From positions 1 through 55,833 of the forward strand of contig JAPLDB010000070.1 of the NCBI GenBank assembly GCA_026391975.1: 55,833 nt of DNA. Direction: 5' to 3'. Shown here piece after piece: positions 39,664 through 46,688 of the stretch (its first letter is position 1; every line of letters starts with the position of its first letter). The stretch is from Bacteroidota bacterium. GTDB lineage: Bacteria; Bacteroidota; Bacteroidia; AKYH767-A; 2013-40CM-41-45. The position numbers and the translations under genes are program-made. The notes beneath the pieces were generated by a model that was not told the origin of the DNA, ran no database searches, and saw nothing but the letters and a program-made list of their open reading frames with translations.

Positions 39664-40005
39664 ATGGAAAAGTTCATGTATTTATTTCGCGGAGGAATGG
39701 CCGGCGAACAAGCTGCAAACGTGCCACAGGATCACATGCAAAAATGGATGAAGTGGATGGAGTCGCTTGCTGAAAAAGGGATTATGGTCGGTGGAGAGCC
39801 ACTGGTGCCAACCGGCAAACAGGTGAATGGCTCAAAGAAGGTCGTAACCGACGGGCCGTTTATTGAAGCCAAAGAACTCGTCGGCGGATATCTCATCGTA
39901 AATGCCAAAGACATTAATGACGCAGTGGAAATATCCAAGGGCTGTCCGATTTTTGAAGTTGATGGCAAACTGGAGGTTCGTCCGATTCAGAAAATGGAGA
40001 TGTAA
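39664..40005 (+). CDS. YciI/DGPF-domain protein
   Basis: The protein has 113 aa. 'KFMYLFRGGM', 'MQKWMKWMESLAEKGIMVGG', 'VTDGPFIEAKELVGGYLIV' (the DGPF signature, here TDGPFIE) and 'EISKGCPIFEVDGKLEVRPI' fill the dimeric alpha/beta barrel of the YCII family. DGPF proteins are the standard neighbours of ECF42 sigma factors and are often in their regulon, but their biochemical role is not established. Confidence 0.9.
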   Translation: MEKFMYLFRGGMAGEQAANVPQDHMQKWMKWMESLAEKGIMVGGEPLVPTGKQVNGSKKVVTDGPFIEAKELVGGYLIVNAKDINDAVEISKGCPIFEVDGKLEVRPIQKMEM

Positions 40006-40024
40006 TGTACGAAGTACTGATCAC

Positions 40025-40102
40025 TACGAATATACTAAGTACAAATTGCACAAATTAGAGTGATCGAACTTTAATGGAAAATCGGTAATTAGTATATTCG
40101 TA
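40025..40102. repeat. 13-bp perfect inverted repeat upstream of the sigma gene
   Basis: TACGAATATACTA (40025-40037) and TAGTATATTCGTA (40090-40102) are perfect inverted copies; the following TAATTAGTAATTAGTA adds more of the same words. It sits between the YciI and sigma genes and could terminate the former. Confidence 0.75.
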
Positions 40103-40123
40103 ATAATTAGTAATTAGTACCCG

Positions 40124-41386
40124 ATGAGTGATCAGCAAAATGTTTATAAAACAGTAGACCATCTTTTTCGTCACGAGTCGGGAAAGATGGTTTCTGTTTT
40201 AACGCGCATTTTCGGGTTCTCCAATATCGAGCAGGCTGAAGATATTGTGCAGGACACTTTATTGAAGGCGCTGGAGATCTGGAAGTGGGGAAAAATTCCT
40301 GACAACCCGCAGGCATGGTTGTACAAGGCTGCAAAGAATAAAGCCATCGACATCATCCGCAGGGAAAAGCTGAAGTATAAAATTGAAAATGAAATCGCAG
40401 TATTGCTTCATTCAGAATATTCTCTTGCGCCAAAGGTGAATGAGATGTTTACCGATGGAGAAATTAAAGACAGCCAGCTGCGAATGATGTTTGCCTGTTG
40501 TCATTCATCAATTTCACAGGAAGCACAGATCACACTAATGCTGAAAACACTCTGCGGACTCAGTGTAAAAGAAATCAGTAGTGCATTTCTTACAAATGAG
40601 GAAACCATCAGTAAGCGTCTTTATCGGACGAAGGTAAAAATCCGCGAAGAAAAAATTCCTATCGATTACCCCGGCGCAGGCGTCATGCCTCAGCGCATAG
40701 ATGCAGTACTCAAAACACTATATCTTCTTTTCAATGAAGGATACAATTCTTCTCATCCGGAAAAACTCATACGCGAAGACCTTTGTGAAGAGGCGATGCG
40801 CCTGGCAATCATGCTTTCTGAAAATTTTAAAACCAACCTCCCGCAAACAAATGCTTTGCTTGCACTGATGTGCTTCCAGGTTTCCCGTTTCGGTTCGCGG
40901 CTCGACGACAAAGGGATGATCATATTACTGAAAGATCAGGACAGAAAAACGTGGAATAAATTCCTTATTCAAAAGGGAAATGAATACATGACACATGCAT
41001 CATCAGGAGACAGCTACCATGATTTCCATATTGAAGCCGGTATTGCTTCCATCCATGCCAATGCAGCAGCATATGATCAAACCAACTGGCAGATCATTCT
41101 TGGCCTTTACGATTCTCTCTTCATTCGAACTAATAATCCTCTTGTTGCCCTCAACCGCTGTCTGGTTCTTGCAGAGTTGGAAGGACCATCCATAGCAATA
41201 GAGGAACTTTTGAAGATGAATGGACTCTCGGAAAATTGTCACTACCATGCTTCCCTTGGAGAAATGTATTTTAGGTCCGGAGAAAAGACCGAGGCAAAAA
41301 AATATTTTTTAAAAGCACTCGATTTAACAACTTCAAATGCGGAGGCGGATTTAATCAGACGGAAACTTAGTTTATTGGAAAGCTAA
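40124..41386 (+). CDS. ECF42-type RNA polymerase sigma factor with long C-terminal domain
   Basis: The protein has 420 aa, more than twice the usual ECF length. Residues about 5-75 are region 2 ('FSNIEQAEDIVQDTLLKALE', 'NPQAWLYKAAKNKAIDIIRR'). Region 4 is about 120-180 ('MLKTLCGLSVKEISSAFLTN', 'EETISKRLYRTKVKIREEKI'). The rest is the TPR-like domain of this group ('LYLLFNEGYNSSHPEKLIRE', 'FQVSRFGSRLDDKGMIILL', 'NNPLVALNRCLVLAELEGPS'), believed to replace an anti-sigma factor in controlling activity. The adjacent DGPF gene is the expected partner. Confidence 0.93.
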   Translation: MSDQQNVYKTVDHLFRHESGKMVSVLTRIFGFSNIEQAEDIVQDTLLKALEIWKWGKIPDNPQAWLYKAAKNKAIDIIRREKLKYKIENEIAVLLHSEYSLAPKVNEMFTDGEIKDSQLRMMFACCHSSISQEAQITLMLKTLCGLSVKEISSAFLTNEETISKRLYRTKVKIREEKIPIDYPGAGVMPQRIDAVLKTLYLLFNEGYNSSHPEKLIREDLCEEAMRLAIMLSENFKTNLPQTNALLALMCFQVSRFGSRLDDKGMIILLKDQDRKTWNKFLIQKGNEYMTHASSGDSYHDFHIEAGIASIHANAAAYDQTNWQIILGLYDSLFIRTNNPLVALNRCLVLAELEGPSIAIEELLKMNGLSENCHYHASLGEMYFRSGEKTEAKKYFLKALDLTTSNAEADLIRRKLSLLES

Positions 41387-41462: not shown

Positions 41463-42884
41463 ATGCAACCAGCCACCATTGAAGAACTCAGAAAAGTCAT
41501 TTGCCTCACGGACTTGCCGAAGGAACATTTGCAATGGATCCTCGAGCATGGCGAGGTTTCGGAACATGCAGATGGGGATCTTATTATAAAGACCGGCGAC
41601 CCCATAGACGAAATGATTATGGCCCTTGAAGGCAAAGGTCATTTCTATATGAATGTGAATGGCAAACTTGTATTCTATTTTACTTTTGAAAATGATGTGC
41701 AGACAGGTGGCGTAGGTGGATTGCTGCCTTATTCACGCATGAAAATATCACCTGGAGATAATTTCGCTGTTGGAAAAGTGCGGTTATTCCGCCTCCACAA
41801 AAAACATTTCAGGGAACTTGAACAGCTCAATCCTGAATTTATCCAACGGCTCATCGGTTATATGACGGAACGCGCCCGGCATTTCGCAACAGAAAAACTG
41901 CAGCAGGAAAAAGTTGGTGCATTGGGTCAGCTTGCTGCCGGCATTGCACACGAGCTGAATAATCCCGCCGCTGCCATAAACAGGATTTCTTCTGAACTCA
42001 TCAAACGCCTCATGCAGAATTATGATCTTACAGAAAGATTGATGCGGGATCATGTAAAGCCTGAGTTTATAACAAGTGCAAGACAATTAGCGGAAGAAAA
42101 AAAAGCAGTCATTACCCAAAAAATAATGCTTACCGCCATGCAACGCCTCGACAGGGAAGACGAGATCAATGCATGGCTTGAGAAAAACAGCGCATCCGAC
42201 GGACAAGTCGCAGAGACATTCACCGATACAGGGATTACCATTAATGATCTGGAGAAAATCAGTAACAGTGTCGGCAAGGAAGCGCTTCCGGATGTACTTC
42301 AATGGCTGGAGAACAACCTCAGCTCTCAACGTATATTGAAAGATCTTGATGATGCCTCATGCCGCATTTCAAATTTAGTTGGAGCAATAAAAAGTCATGT
42401 TCACATGGACCGCACCAGTGACATGCAGCCCACAAATATTCATAAGGACCTGGAAAACACGCTTACGTTACTGGGCTATAAACTCCGTGAAAAAAATATT
42501 ACGGTGAGGAAAGATTTTTGTGCCGACATGCGTGAAATTCCTGCATACGTTGGTGAACTTAACCAGGTGTGGACCAACCTGCTTGACAATGCCATCTATG
42601 CTGTTCCGAAGAACGGAACAATCAGTGTTGAAACAAAATGTAGCCAGCATGACGTCATCGTTAAAGTAATTGATGGTGGAGCGGGCATCCCTGAAGAAAT
42701 CCAATCAAGGATCTTCGATCCTTTTTTCACTACAAAGAAACAGGGAGAAGGCACCGGCATCGGCCTTGACACAGTGATGCGAATTGTAAAGAGGCACAAC
42801 GCAGAAATAAAAGTTGTTTCAGTTCCGGGAAGAACTGTATTCACTGTTTGCATTCCATTCCCTAAAAAAGAAAATGCAGAATGA
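41463..42884 (+). CDS. Histidine kinase with N-terminal cyclic-nucleotide-binding-like domain
   Basis: The protein has 473 aa, without membrane segments. Residues about 15-135 resemble a cNMP-binding (Crp-type) domain ('LPKEHLQWILEHGEVSEHAD', 'GDLIIKTGDPIDEMIMALEG'). Residues about 150-220 hold the HisKA helix with phospho-acceptor His163 in 'GQLAAGIAHELNNPAAAINR'. The ATPase domain is at about 355-470, with N box 'NQVWTNLLDNAIYAVP', G1 'DGGAGIPEEIQSRIFDPFFT' and G2 'GEGTGIGLDTV'. It overlaps the next gene by 4 bases (ATGA), so the kinase and the regulator/reductase fusion form one two-component system. The signal bound by the N-terminal domain is unknown; cAMP is conceivable, given the adenylate cyclase at 48.9 kb. 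Confidence 0.92.
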   Translation: MQPATIEELRKVICLTDLPKEHLQWILEHGEVSEHADGDLIIKTGDPIDEMIMALEGKGHFYMNVNGKLVFYFTFENDVQTGGVGGLLPYSRMKISPGDNFAVGKVRLFRLHKKHFRELEQLNPEFIQRLIGYMTERARHFATEKLQQEKVGALGQLAAGIAHELNNPAAAINRISSELIKRLMQNYDLTERLMRDHVKPEFITSARQLAEEKKAVITQKIMLTAMQRLDREDEINAWLEKNSASDGQVAETFTDTGITINDLEKISNSVGKEALPDVLQWLENNLSSQRILKDLDDASCRISNLVGAIKSHVHMDRTSDMQPTNIHKDLENTLTLLGYKLREKNITVRKDFCADMREIPAYVGELNQVWTNLLDNAIYAVPKNGTISVETKCSQHDVIVKVIDGGAGIPEEIQSRIFDPFFTTKKQGEGTGIGLDTVMRIVKRHNAEIKVVSVPGRTVFTVCIPFPKKENAE

Positions 42885-44542
42885 AACTACCATACATCAT
42901 TATTGTTGATGACGACAGGCAGGTACTCGGTGCCATTCAACGCGACATCCGGAATAAATACAGAGAAGAATATCGAATTGCAGCAACCGAGTCTGCACTT
43001 GAAGCCCTTGATCTCATCAAAGAACTGAAGTTGAAAAATGAAGCGGTAGCTCTTTTTATCTCCGACCAGAAAATGCCGGAGATGGAAGGTGTAGCCTTTC
43101 TTGAAATTGCAAAGCAAACGTATGAAGATGCCGGAATGATATTACTCACCGCCTATTCAGACATTGACGCAGCCATCAAAGCAATCAACACAGTAAAGCT
43201 TGATCACTATTTGCTAAAGCCGTGGAATCCTCCGGAAGAAAAATTATATCCCATTGTAGATGACCTGCTTGAAGAGTGGCATTCGCTTTACAAGCCCGAC
43301 CATGAGGGTATTCGCATTATCGGTTTTCAATGGAGCCCGAAGTCGCACAAGCTTAAAGAATTTCTCTCAGGCAACTTGGTGCCGTTTTTATGGATGGATG
43401 TTGAGCATAATCCTGATGCAGAAAAATACCTCACCAGTGCCAATGTTACACATGCATCGTTGCCGCTTGTAGTTTTGAAAGATGGATCATTTCTTACTGA
43501 TCCTGAACTACCGGATCTCGCTGCGGGAATAGGTCTGAAACAAAAAGCCACGGAGGCAATGTATGACGTCCTCATTATCGGTGCAGGCCCTGCCGGACTG
43601 GCAGCATCAGTATATGGTTCATGTGAAGGATTGAAAACACTGCTGATTGAAAAAAGCAATCCCGGCGGACAAGCGAGCAGCAGTGCGCGCATTGAAAACT
43701 ACCTGGGATTTCCGAATGGCTTATCAGGAGCAGAACTTACCCGAAGGGCCATTGCACAAACAGTACGCTTCGGAACGGAAATGCTTACGCCACAGGAAGT
43801 GAAAAAAATCAATGTGAAAGACGGTTATAAAATTGTGGTAATGGCTGACGGCTCTGTGATCCACACAAAAGCGATTGTGATTTCTACCGGCGTTGCCTAC
43901 GCAAAGCTTGAAGTTGAAGGGATCGAAAAATTTACCGGTGCCGGCGTGTATTATGGTTCTGCTGCCATTGAAGCGCACGCTTGTCGCGACGGTGTTATTT
44001 ATTTAGTCGGCGGGGGAAATTCTGCATGCCAGGCAGCAATGCACCTTTGCAATTTTGCAAAAGAGGTTAACATATTGATCAGGCGCGACGAACTGAAGCA
44101 CGTTGCTGCCAATTACCTCGTAGAGAACATCAGCAAGGTCCCCAACATTCATGTACTTGCAAACACTGAAGTAACTGCTGTACATGGAGCAGAAGTGCTT
44201 GAACAAATCACATTAAAAAATTCCAAAACAGGAGAAGAAAAAACCGTTCCTGCAAAAGCACTGTTTGTTTATATCGGTTCCCGCCCGGGAACATCATGGC
44301 TCAATGATTTATTGTTGAAGGATGAGCGGGGATTCATCATCACAGGCAGAGAGCTCATTGATCAAAAAAACTTTCACTCCCAATGGAAACTGAAACGTGA
44401 GCCTTTCTTGCCTGAATCGATCGTTCCCGGAATTTTTGCATCGGGTGACGTGCGCTCGGGTGCAATGACGGGAATATCCTCAGCAGTTGGTGAAGGGGCA
44501 ATGGCAATACGGTTTGTGAGGAAGTACCTGCAGGAGAACTAG
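42881..44542 (+). CDS. Response regulator fused to a thioredoxin-reductase-like flavoprotein without CxxC
   Basis: The protein has 553 aa in three parts. Residues 1-130 are a receiver domain with the acidic pocket D10-D12, phospho-acceptor D62 ('LFISDQKMPEMEG'), T90 and K113. Residues about 140-222 look like a glutaredoxin-type fold ('LVPFLWMDVEHNPDAEKYL', 'LPLVVLKDGSFLTDPELPDL') with no Cys pair (WSPKS at the usual site). Residues 228-553 are a thioredoxin-reductase fold: FAD site GAGPAG 234-239, NAD(P) site 'IYLVGGGNSACQAAM' and 'GIFASGDVRSGAMTG'. The redox CATC of true reductases is replaced by GSAA (359-362). Phosphorylation by the overlapping kinase gene may control the flavin unit, or the flavin may sense NADPH. 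Enzyme activity is unknown. Confidence 0.93.
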   Translation: MKLPYIIIVDDDRQVLGAIQRDIRNKYREEYRIAATESALEALDLIKELKLKNEAVALFISDQKMPEMEGVAFLEIAKQTYEDAGMILLTAYSDIDAAIKAINTVKLDHYLLKPWNPPEEKLYPIVDDLLEEWHSLYKPDHEGIRIIGFQWSPKSHKLKEFLSGNLVPFLWMDVEHNPDAEKYLTSANVTHASLPLVVLKDGSFLTDPELPDLAAGIGLKQKATEAMYDVLIIGAGPAGLAASVYGSCEGLKTLLIEKSNPGGQASSSARIENYLGFPNGLSGAELTRRAIAQTVRFGTEMLTPQEVKKINVKDGYKIVVMADGSVIHTKAIVISTGVAYAKLEVEGIEKFTGAGVYYGSAAIEAHACRDGVIYLVGGGNSACQAAMHLCNFAKEVNILIRRDELKHVAANYLVENISKVPNIHVLANTEVTAVHGAEVLEQITLKNSKTGEEKTVPAKALFVYIGSRPGTSWLNDLLLKDERGFIITGRELIDQKNFHSQWKLKREPFLPESIVPGIFASGDVRSGAMTGISSAVGEGAMAIRFVRKYLQEN

Positions 44543-44643: not shown

Positions 44644-45879
44644 TTACATTCCGTTAATCTCAATCACCTTCGCCAGCGCTTTCAACGCCGTATCATGTTT
44701 TTTCACAAAGGGATTATTCAGATCCCACACATAACCCGCAAGCACGGAACAGATCTGGCTTTTGAAACCTTGATTGATGTCGCGTGCGAAAAAGATGTCG
44801 TGTAAAGTGCCGTCATACCATCCTGAAACATAGCTGCGAAAAGTATTGATGCCCTGCATCATGTGTGCAGTGTATTCTTTGTTCCAGTCAATGGTTGAAT
44901 CATTGCGCAGATGACGCGCAACCAATTTTGCTGCCGTATGTCCGCTCTCCATGGCGAATGTAACTCCCGAAGAAAAAACCGGATCAAGAAATTCAGTTGC
45001 ATTTCCGGTGAGCACAAATCCGTCACCGTATAATTTTTTGGTGGTGATCGCATAACCCGTAATCACCGTTGGCTGAAGAATGATTTCAGCATCACGAAAA
45101 CGATCAGCAGTATTCGCATCAGCGGAAATCATTGCTCGGTACGATTTTTCATCTGTGCCATTGAATTGCTCAAAAAATTCAGGTGTGCCCACGAATCCTA
45201 CAGATGTAATTCCATTACTGAAAGGGATAATCCATATCCACACGTCCTGCCTGTGTACCACAACAGTGATGCGGTTTCCGTCAATGCCTTCCGGACGTTT
45301 TAAATCTTTGATATGTGCAAAGAATGCCTTGCGCGTTGGAAATCCGCTCGGCTCATCCAGGTTAAACATGCGCGGTATCACGCGGCCATATCCGCTGGCA
45401 TCCACAATAAACTTTGCTTCGATTTCTTTTTTCGATCCGTCGGCGTGTTCAACAGTTGTTACTGAATGATCATTGTGAAATTTGATGTCGGTAACACCTG
45501 TGCGGTAATCGATCGGAACACCTTTTTTCTCAACAGTATCTGCAAGTGTTTTATCAAACTGCGCCCGCGGTACTTGCCAGGTCCAGTTCCATCCTTTGGT
45601 AAACTGATCTGCAAAATTGAAATCACAGATCTCATCCCCACGTACAAACTTGGCTCCGAATTTTTCCTGGAAGCCCTGGGCTTTCACAGCATCGAGTAAT
45701 CCAGCTGCTTCCAGATGATCCATGCATCGCGGCAGTAAACTTTCTCCGATCACAAAACGTGGGAACTGTTGCTTCTCCACCATTCGAATATTGAATCCCT
45801 CCTTCTTTAATATAGAAGCGGCAATGGTTCCGGCCGGACCGGCACCGATTACGAGTACATCAGTCTTTTCTTTAATCAT
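44644..45879 (-). CDS. FAD-dependent oxidoreductase, tryptophan-halogenase-like
   Basis: The protein has 411 aa. The N-terminal FAD fold is 'TDVLVIGAGPAGTIAASILK' (GxGxxG) with 'MVEKQQFPRFVIGESLLPRC' and 'IVDASGYGRVIPRMF'. The sequence 'DVWIWIIPFSNGITSVGFVG' contains WIWIIP, a match to the WxWxIP motif of flavin-dependent halogenases, and 'LDPVFSSGVTFAMESGHTAA' closes the FAD site. Such proteins occur in Bacteroidota pigment (flexirubin/dialkylresorcinol) clusters and as geranylgeranyl-reductase-like enzymes. Here it stands alone, so halogenation, hydroxylation or reduction cannot be chosen. It would need a flavin reductase partner if it is a halogenase. Confidence 0.85.
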   Translation of the reverse strand: MIKEKTDVLVIGAGPAGTIAASILKKEGFNIRMVEKQQFPRFVIGESLLPRCMDHLEAAGLLDAVKAQGFQEKFGAKFVRGDEICDFNFADQFTKGWNWTWQVPRAQFDKTLADTVEKKGVPIDYRTGVTDIKFHNDHSVTTVEHADGSKKEIEAKFIVDASGYGRVIPRMFNLDEPSGFPTRKAFFAHIKDLKRPEGIDGNRITVVVHRQDVWIWIIPFSNGITSVGFVGTPEFFEQFNGTDEKSYRAMISADANTADRFRDAEIILQPTVITGYAITTKKLYGDGFVLTGNATEFLDPVFSSGVTFAMESGHTAAKLVARHLRNDSTIDWNKEYTAHMMQGINTFRSYVSGWYDGTLHDIFFARDINQGFKSQICSVLAGYVWDLNNPFVKKHDTALKALAKVIEINGM

Positions 45880-46284: not shown

Positions 46285-46665
46285 TTATTTCGCGTGACCA
46301 CGGGCAATATTCGGACTTTCCGGGTTTACGCTCAGTTTGAGCAATTTTGGAAGTACGACCAGATCCATATCCTCCATTGGAACAGCGCCAAGCAAAACTT
46401 CATTTCCCATAATCAAAGCACCAACAAAACAATTCCTGTTTTCAAAAGTGATGCGCACAGGACCTGCATATGGTACAGTGTGTGAACTTCCATCTGCTGT
46501 TGTAGCTTCACGCGTTTCAAGAATCGTAAGCTGAAGCTGTGTTGCAATGTGTTCAGGGATCACGAGATATGTTGATCCGCTGTCAGCAAGGCATTTTACA
46601 GTAATGGGTTGTAATTCCTTCCTGACCGGATTTGATAATTTTATTTCGGAGTATACAAGGCCCAT
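46285..46665 (-). CDS. Retropepsin-like aspartyl protease-fold protein
   Basis: The protein has 126 aa from MGLVYSEIKLSNPVRKELQP. The single-domain clan AA signature is D28-S-G-S in 'VKCLADSGSTYLVIPEHIAT', followed by 'ALIMGNEVLLGAVPMEDMDL' (flap and psi-loop hydrophobic-Gly pattern). It would work as a homodimer. There is no signal peptide. The start at 46665 is preferred to the frame start at 46683 because the promoter box at 46681-46688 overlaps the latter. Its cellular role is unknown. Confidence 0.85.
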   Translation of the reverse strand: MGLVYSEIKLSNPVRKELQPITVKCLADSGSTYLVIPEHIATQLQLTILETREATTADGSSHTVPYAGPVRITFENRNCFVGALIMGNEVLLGAVPMEDMDLVVLPKLLKLSVNPESPNIARGHAK

Positions 46666-46680
46666 GATTATTTCTTTTTG

Positions 46681-46688
46681 CAAAGATA
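46681..46688 (-). promoter_or_regulatory. -7 box (TATCTTTG) of the aspartyl protease gene
   Basis: Exact TAnnTTTG on the reverse strand, 15 bases before the chosen ATG. The -33 box is not clear. Confidence 0.5.

Follow-up and report, generated by a model that had tools for sequence, protein, structure and literature searches.

The gene pair described here encodes a histidine kinase and a response regulator whose output is a thioredoxin reductase (TrxR)-like flavoprotein devoid of redox cysteines. The cysteines are missing throughout the receiver-type family, and sequence conservation argues that the device is real and widespread rather than a broken enzyme. Our preferred reading, to which we would give about an even chance, is that the protein is a thiol-free, phosphorylation-gated NAD(P)H/FAD flavoprotein acting as the regulatory effector of its cognate two-component pair. 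The genes lie at positions 41463-44542 of the window, that is, the 55,833 nucleotides (forward strand, 1-55,833) of contig JAPLDB010000070.1 from Bacteroidota bacterium assembly GCA_026391975.1. They overlap by an ATGA, as the original prediction had stated:

41463..42884, + strand: HK, soluble sensor histidine kinase of 473 aa (CRP/cNMP-like barrel, DHp with an inserted helical region, HATPase)
42881..42884, + strand: ATGA stop/start overlap of the HK and RR genes, read from the sequence
42881..44542, + strand: RR, response regulator of 553 aa (receiver, glutaredoxin-like and TrxR-like parts)

Directly upstream of HK (window 39664-41386) lie a YCII-domain gene and then the gene of a sigma factor with DUF6596. 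Convergent with RR is the gene of a tryptophan-halogenase/FAD_binding_3-like flavoprotein (window 44644-45879, - strand), and a small retropepsin-like aspartyl protease protein (PF13650) is encoded at 46285-46683 (- strand).

The regulator joins a receiver to glutaredoxin (Grx)-like and TrxR-like parts, an architecture proposed from the bare sequence and now recognized by Pfam (Response_reg, 3e-15; Pyr_redox_2, 2e-32) and by NCBIfam (mycoredoxin-type Grx, 5e-8, at residues 145-213). Its features are as follows:

42881..43264, + strand: receiver domain with D10-12, D62 (43064-43066), T90 (43148-43150) and K113 (43217-43219); Response_reg 3e-15 and conservation
43310..43546, + strand: glutaredoxin/mycoredoxin-like domain, residues 144-222; TIGR02200 5e-8 and AlphaFold2
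43334..43345, + strand: S152-P-K-S155, at the position of the Grx CPDC of outgroup fusions; alignment with L201 and L227
43556..44539, + strand: TrxR-like FAD/NAD(P)H module, residues 226-553; Pyr_redox_2, PDB phmmer 1e-44, Foldseek 5mh4 TM 0.91
43580..43597, + strand: FAD motif G234-A-G-P-A-G239, conserved among homologues
43958..43969, + strand: S360-A-A-I363, where TrxR has CATC; aligned with L003, the true TrxR of the same genome
43970..43972, + strand: E364, at the position of TrxR D139, invariant in 124/124 homologues
43982..43984, + strand: C368, sole Cys with wide conservation in the family (94/124); homologue alignment
44009..44026, + strand: NAD(P)-binding motif GGGNSA, residues 377-382, conserved among homologues

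The claims that the receiver is complete (D62, T90, K113) and that the FAD and NAD(P) glycine motifs are intact hold well beyond this copy: homologues conserve D10-12, D62, T90, K113, GAGPAG and GGGNSA. RR thus shows the marks of a two-component response regulator (the receiver DD/phospho-Asp/Thr-Ser/Lys set and an adjacent cognate kinase), and we predict with good confidence that it binds FAD and NAD(P)H. The redox motifs are another matter. The NADPH domain lacks the CxxC of thioredoxin-disulfide reductases. The original prediction was right that the cysteines are gone from this site but placed their equivalent, as GSAA, at 359-362; when true reductases are aligned so that D139 falls on E364, their CATC corresponds to SAAI at 360-363. 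The Grx-like part, likewise said to have no CxxC, carries S152-P-K-S155 instead. RR shares the FAD/NAD(P)H fold with the thioredoxin-disulfide reductases of TRX_reduct (TIGR01292), but it lacks their redox CxxC and scores 231.7 bits, below the curated cut-off of 343.45. Very probably, then, RR is no disulfide reductase.

A survey of homologues, drawn from 80 named loci, plasmid records and phylum samples, extends this conclusion to the whole subfamily. None of 124 non-redundant receiver-type proteins retains a CxxC at or near the TrxR site, while all 124 keep E364; the suspicion that RR is not a classical thioredoxin reductase is therefore supported for its relatives as well. The observation named beforehand as its refutation, a CxxC kept within the subfamily, did not turn up. 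At least seven phyla are represented (Bacteroidota and relatives, Cyanobacteria, Acidobacteriota, Actinomycetota, Chloroflexota, Deinococcota and Pseudomonadota). The disappearance of both CxxC motifs could in itself be a sign that a true reductase has decayed. However, RR is a full-length open reading frame, 76% identical to the copy in a sibling genus, its motifs are invariant, and, because the loss is common to every receiver-type homologue, the degenerate-copy reading is rejected; we consider it virtually ruled out. We also find it highly improbable that RR is a thiol enzyme relying on a relocated or single cysteine (C368) or on an external thiol partner. The presence of C368 in 94 of the 124 proteins speaks for such an enzyme, as does a trxA gene that adjoins a cNMP-fused relative in Rhodococcus, but C368 sits five residues past the lost motif and, being missing in 30/124, is no universal catalytic residue. 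Moreover, other residues, often Ser, stand in for the Grx cysteines.

The nearest outgroup consists of thiol-competent single-chain reductases of domain order Grx-TrxR, found in an Acidobacteriota genome (L201) and on an Emticicia plasmid (L227). Unlike RR, both keep their two CxxC motifs (CPDC and CATC) and have no receiver or cNMP domain. In the tree they split from all cysteine-less members at 100/100; the receiver form makes up one clade (96/80), and the cNMP-fused form falls into two groups. Judging from these sequences, both CxxC motifs were apparently lost in one ancestral event, a single loss being the simplest reading and no proof, as there are only two outgroup rows, one of them long-branched. 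The Emticicia protein has two Grx domains, and its gene lies beside those for thioredoxin and a GDCCVxC (seleno)protein.

That the receiver fusion is familiar to annotators, as had been suggested, is borne out by public records, which name such proteins "FAD-dependent oxidoreductase", and by a census of response regulators that lists REC-TrxR as "Mycobacterium-like" (Galperin et al. 2018, PMC5847659). The literature searched contained no experimental work on the REC-Grx-TrxR family. RR belongs to it by full-length homology, by the same CxxC loss and by its place in the 96/80 clade. Its domain order matches that of REC-TrxR regulators over the full length, with no difference found, and relatives 44-51% identical to it occur in Cyanobacteria, Deinococcus, Burkholderiales and Actinobacteria. 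Many relatives have a ZnF-UBP partner, which the window copy lacks.

The AlphaFold2 model of RR has three domains (pLDDT 85, pTM 0.71), with low confidence in loop 260-281 on the flavin side. The closest solved structures found by Foldseek are thioredoxin reductases. AhpF structures reach a TM of at most 0.40; AhpF has a tandem thioredoxin-fold N-terminus with CxxC in both parts, whereas RR has a single Grx-like domain and no CxxC. Thioredoxin reductases in the flavin-oxidising conformation present their disulfide to the flavin. Against Lactococcus TrxR, the cofactor-free model of RR resembles the flavin-reducing form (5mh4, TM 0.91) far more than the flavin-oxidising one (5mjk, 0.60), a comparison that covered the RR model only and is no more than suggestive of a cysteine-less protein that would have no use for the flavin-oxidising arrangement.

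The same arrangement would also suit a gated catalyst, either an NAD(P)H:O2 oxidase or a reductase of quinone, ferredoxin or another small acceptor, in which E364 would donate the proton instead of C138/D139. Conserved E364 and intact cofactor motifs would fit a catalyst and to that extent count against a regulatory effector, and TrxR-fold enzymes without CxxC do exist, namely the ferredoxin-NADP reductases, which RR matches in PDB phmmer searches at 8e-19 and weaker. Yet RR is far closer in sequence to TrxR (1e-44) than to these TrxR-like ferredoxin/flavodoxin-NADP reductases of the FNR2/YumC type, and the neighbourhoods contain no conserved acceptor gene, the recurring partner being a zinc-finger protein. 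We regard a catalytic role as possible but rather doubtful.

In the regulatory-effector reading, a kinase signals to RR. The partner gene encodes one with these features:

41478..41828, + strand: HK residues 6-122, input domain with a CRP/cNMP-like beta-barrel that lacks the Arg needed to bind cyclic nucleotides; weak Pfam, AlphaFold2, alignment of 76 kinases
41949..41951, + strand: HK His163, predicted phospho-acceptor in GIAHELNNP, invariant in a 31-kinase alignment
42060..42272, + strand: HK residues 200-270, four inserted helices separating the DHp helix pair; AlphaFold2 secondary structure
42423..42857, + strand: HK residues 321-465, HATPase domain, N-box ELNQVWTNLLDNA; Pfam 2e-23, Foldseek to HK ATPase domains

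Pfam identifies HATPase_c (2e-23), with weak matches to cNMP_binding (0.023) and HisKA (0.0049). The AlphaFold2 model (pLDDT 88) consists of a CRP-like barrel, a long helix, DHp and ATPase; His163 lies on a 72-residue helix, the four-helix insertion occupies residues 200-270, the ATPase domain is normal, and Foldseek retrieves ordinary histidine kinases. HK contains nothing resembling a membrane segment (highest mean hydropathy over 19 residues, 1.17), in line with the anchorless kinase first proposed. The proposal of a cNMP-like input is upheld as regards the barrel, but the Glu and Arg of the cyclic-nucleotide phosphate-binding cassette are absent, HK having GGVGGLLPYSRM at this place, and no Arg was seen at the cassette position among the kinases of the 76-kinase alignment. 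The barrel is therefore not to be read as a cAMP sensor, and cAMP sensing by HK is unsupported.

Pairing with a kinase is conserved. A related kinase lies within 3.5 kb of the receiver-form gene in 101 of the 115 loci that have at least 1.4 kb of flank on both sides; in Bacteroidota it lies upstream, and in other groups downstream positions prevail. An ATP-binding (HK) protein adjoins the regulator in all five plasmid loci examined. We predict, with little reservation, cognate phosphotransfer from HK to RR. Two or three same-family kinases stand near one regulator at four loci (L066, L074, L080 and L091), which suggests multiple inputs to one flavoprotein. Nostoc, Deinococcus and a cyanobacterial MAG (L011, L012, L074) have genes for LtrA (low temperature requirement protein A) near the module.

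A sister form, annotated as "thioredoxin-disulfide reductase", has the same Grx-like and TrxR-like parts and the same CxxC loss, but a cNMP-like domain replaces the receiver; some members have ZnF-UBP neighbours, and none of 19 loci has a kinase nearby. From these sequences, the input domain seems either to be carried by the flavoprotein itself or to belong to a kinase signalling to it, as if phosphotransfer had replaced direct coupling. The sister form bears on another alternative, namely that the flavoprotein is the sensor, the NAD(P)H/FAD state of RR controlling phosphate acceptance or stimulation of the kinase's phosphatase activity and so feeding back on HK. A soluble kinase, the lack of any further output domain and the tight gene overlap would agree with this arrangement. 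But the sister forms keep the flavoprotein without receiver or kinase, and its function therefore needs no kinase for feedback; we judge the sensor role improbable. The gated oxidase or electron donor and the flavin/NADPH sensor were the options put forward in the original prediction, and sequence does not tell them apart.

What the regulatory effector might act upon is hinted at by its neighbours. In many relatives the module adjoins the gene of a small ZnF-UBP protein, some 90 aa long. In a 248-genome sample, 24 of 26 zf-UBP genomes also carry the flavoprotein family (counts 24/2/12/210), and the co-occurrence spans eight families, but 13 of the 24 genomes come from a single one (f24), so that the Fisher value of 2e-22 overstates independence. 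A phylum sample of 149 Acidobacteriota genomes gave 20/8/8/113 (2e-12). Adjacency is the stronger evidence: in 19 of the 24 co-occurring genomes the two genes lie within 3 kb of each other. The CGRY of eukaryotic ZnF-UBP domains reads the ubiquitin tail; the bacterial finger has a conserved CCDsS in its place, making a ubiquitin-tail role unlikely.

In a few genomes, six in all, zf-UBP forms the C-terminal part of a Kef-type antiporter (Na_H_Exchanger PF00999 plus TrkA_N). The fusion adjoins kinase and regulator in four of these (G229, G193, G253, G258) and is encoded elsewhere in G095 and G317; it lies in the module's operon at L130-L132 and is divergent from it at L095/L209. Antiporters of this kind were seen at L130, L131, L132, L133, L209 and L217, mostly beside a kinase and a cysteine-less TrxR. 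In the sibling genome the regulator gene is followed by one for KUP K+ uptake, as is a UBP gene in G132. For the window genome the cation link is by analogy, since no zf-UBP was found there and its single Na_H_Exchanger and KUP genes are on other contigs than the module.

Ergothioneine genes (EgtB/EgtD) flank the module in Dyadobacter (L031, L032, L037) and Pararcticibacter (L041), and the Dyadobacter loci, whose gene order varies by species, also have an OpuAC-permease/ABC pair, a candidate ergothioneine importer. EgtD co-occurs with the flavoprotein family (32/36 vs 45/212, 6e-15), but so does the negative control PF18967 (28/36, 2e-7), so that lineage or lifestyle explains much of the association; the window genome has no EgtD, and an ergothioneine link was discarded. 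Viral contigs held nothing useful on the module.

For the regulatory effector we envision the following course of events. The CRP-like barrel of the soluble kinase would sense a cytosolic signal; HK would autophosphorylate on His163 and donate the phosphate to the receiver's Asp62; the phosphorylated receiver presumably then rearranges the Grx-like and FAD/NAD(P)H domains. NAD(P)H should still be able to reduce the flavin, with no electron path to a disulfide because both CxxC relays are lost. Phosphorylation and NAD(P)H/flavin redox state would thus combine to define an effector state that probably acts by contacting a partner, plausibly, in many relatives, the adjacent ZnF-UBP, free or fused to a Kef antiporter. 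By analogy, the target would plausibly be cation transport. The full picture, in which ion transport is set by phosphorylation together with NAD(P)H/flavin state through a cysteine-less TrxR gating a Kef-type antiporter via a ubiquitin-type zinc finger, is speculative, and we think it unlikely as it stands.

A known and a predicted system can be compared with this picture. KefC, together with KefF or KefG, exemplifies flavoprotein-regulated K+/H+ antiporters. There too a flavoprotein is encoded with a Kef-type antiporter, but the flavoprotein fold is unrelated and the likeness is one of working only; the ZnF-UBP adaptor and the two-component input set the cysteine-less TrxR family apart, and it is no member of that system. 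Burroughs, Iyer and Aravind (Mol Biosyst 7:2261, 2011) reportedly placed bacterial ZF-UBP domains in a predicted cyclic-nucleotide-dependent redox signalling system. Its association of ZF-UBP with cNMP, TrxR and two-component genes recurs in the present family, the window genome with no zf-UBP being an exception, and that prediction may already cover part of the Kef-gating picture. Their paper is included in the reference list of PMC4506424. The CxxC loss across the family, the thiol-competent outgroup and the Kef linkage were worked out in the present analysis; the cNMP-fused sister form, the ZnF-UBP partner and the Kef-UBP operons do not figure in the original prediction.

The outputs of most response regulators bind DNA or synthesize second messengers. 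In this family the output is a redox flavoprotein that has lost its redox thiols, a state which selection has preserved across at least seven phyla. The comparison set now at hand (thiol-competent Grx-TrxR, cNMP-fused, receiver-fused and Grx-TrxR alone) makes the role of the cysteine-less TrxR directly testable, and the ZnF-UBP/Kef linkage provides a concrete candidate for its target.
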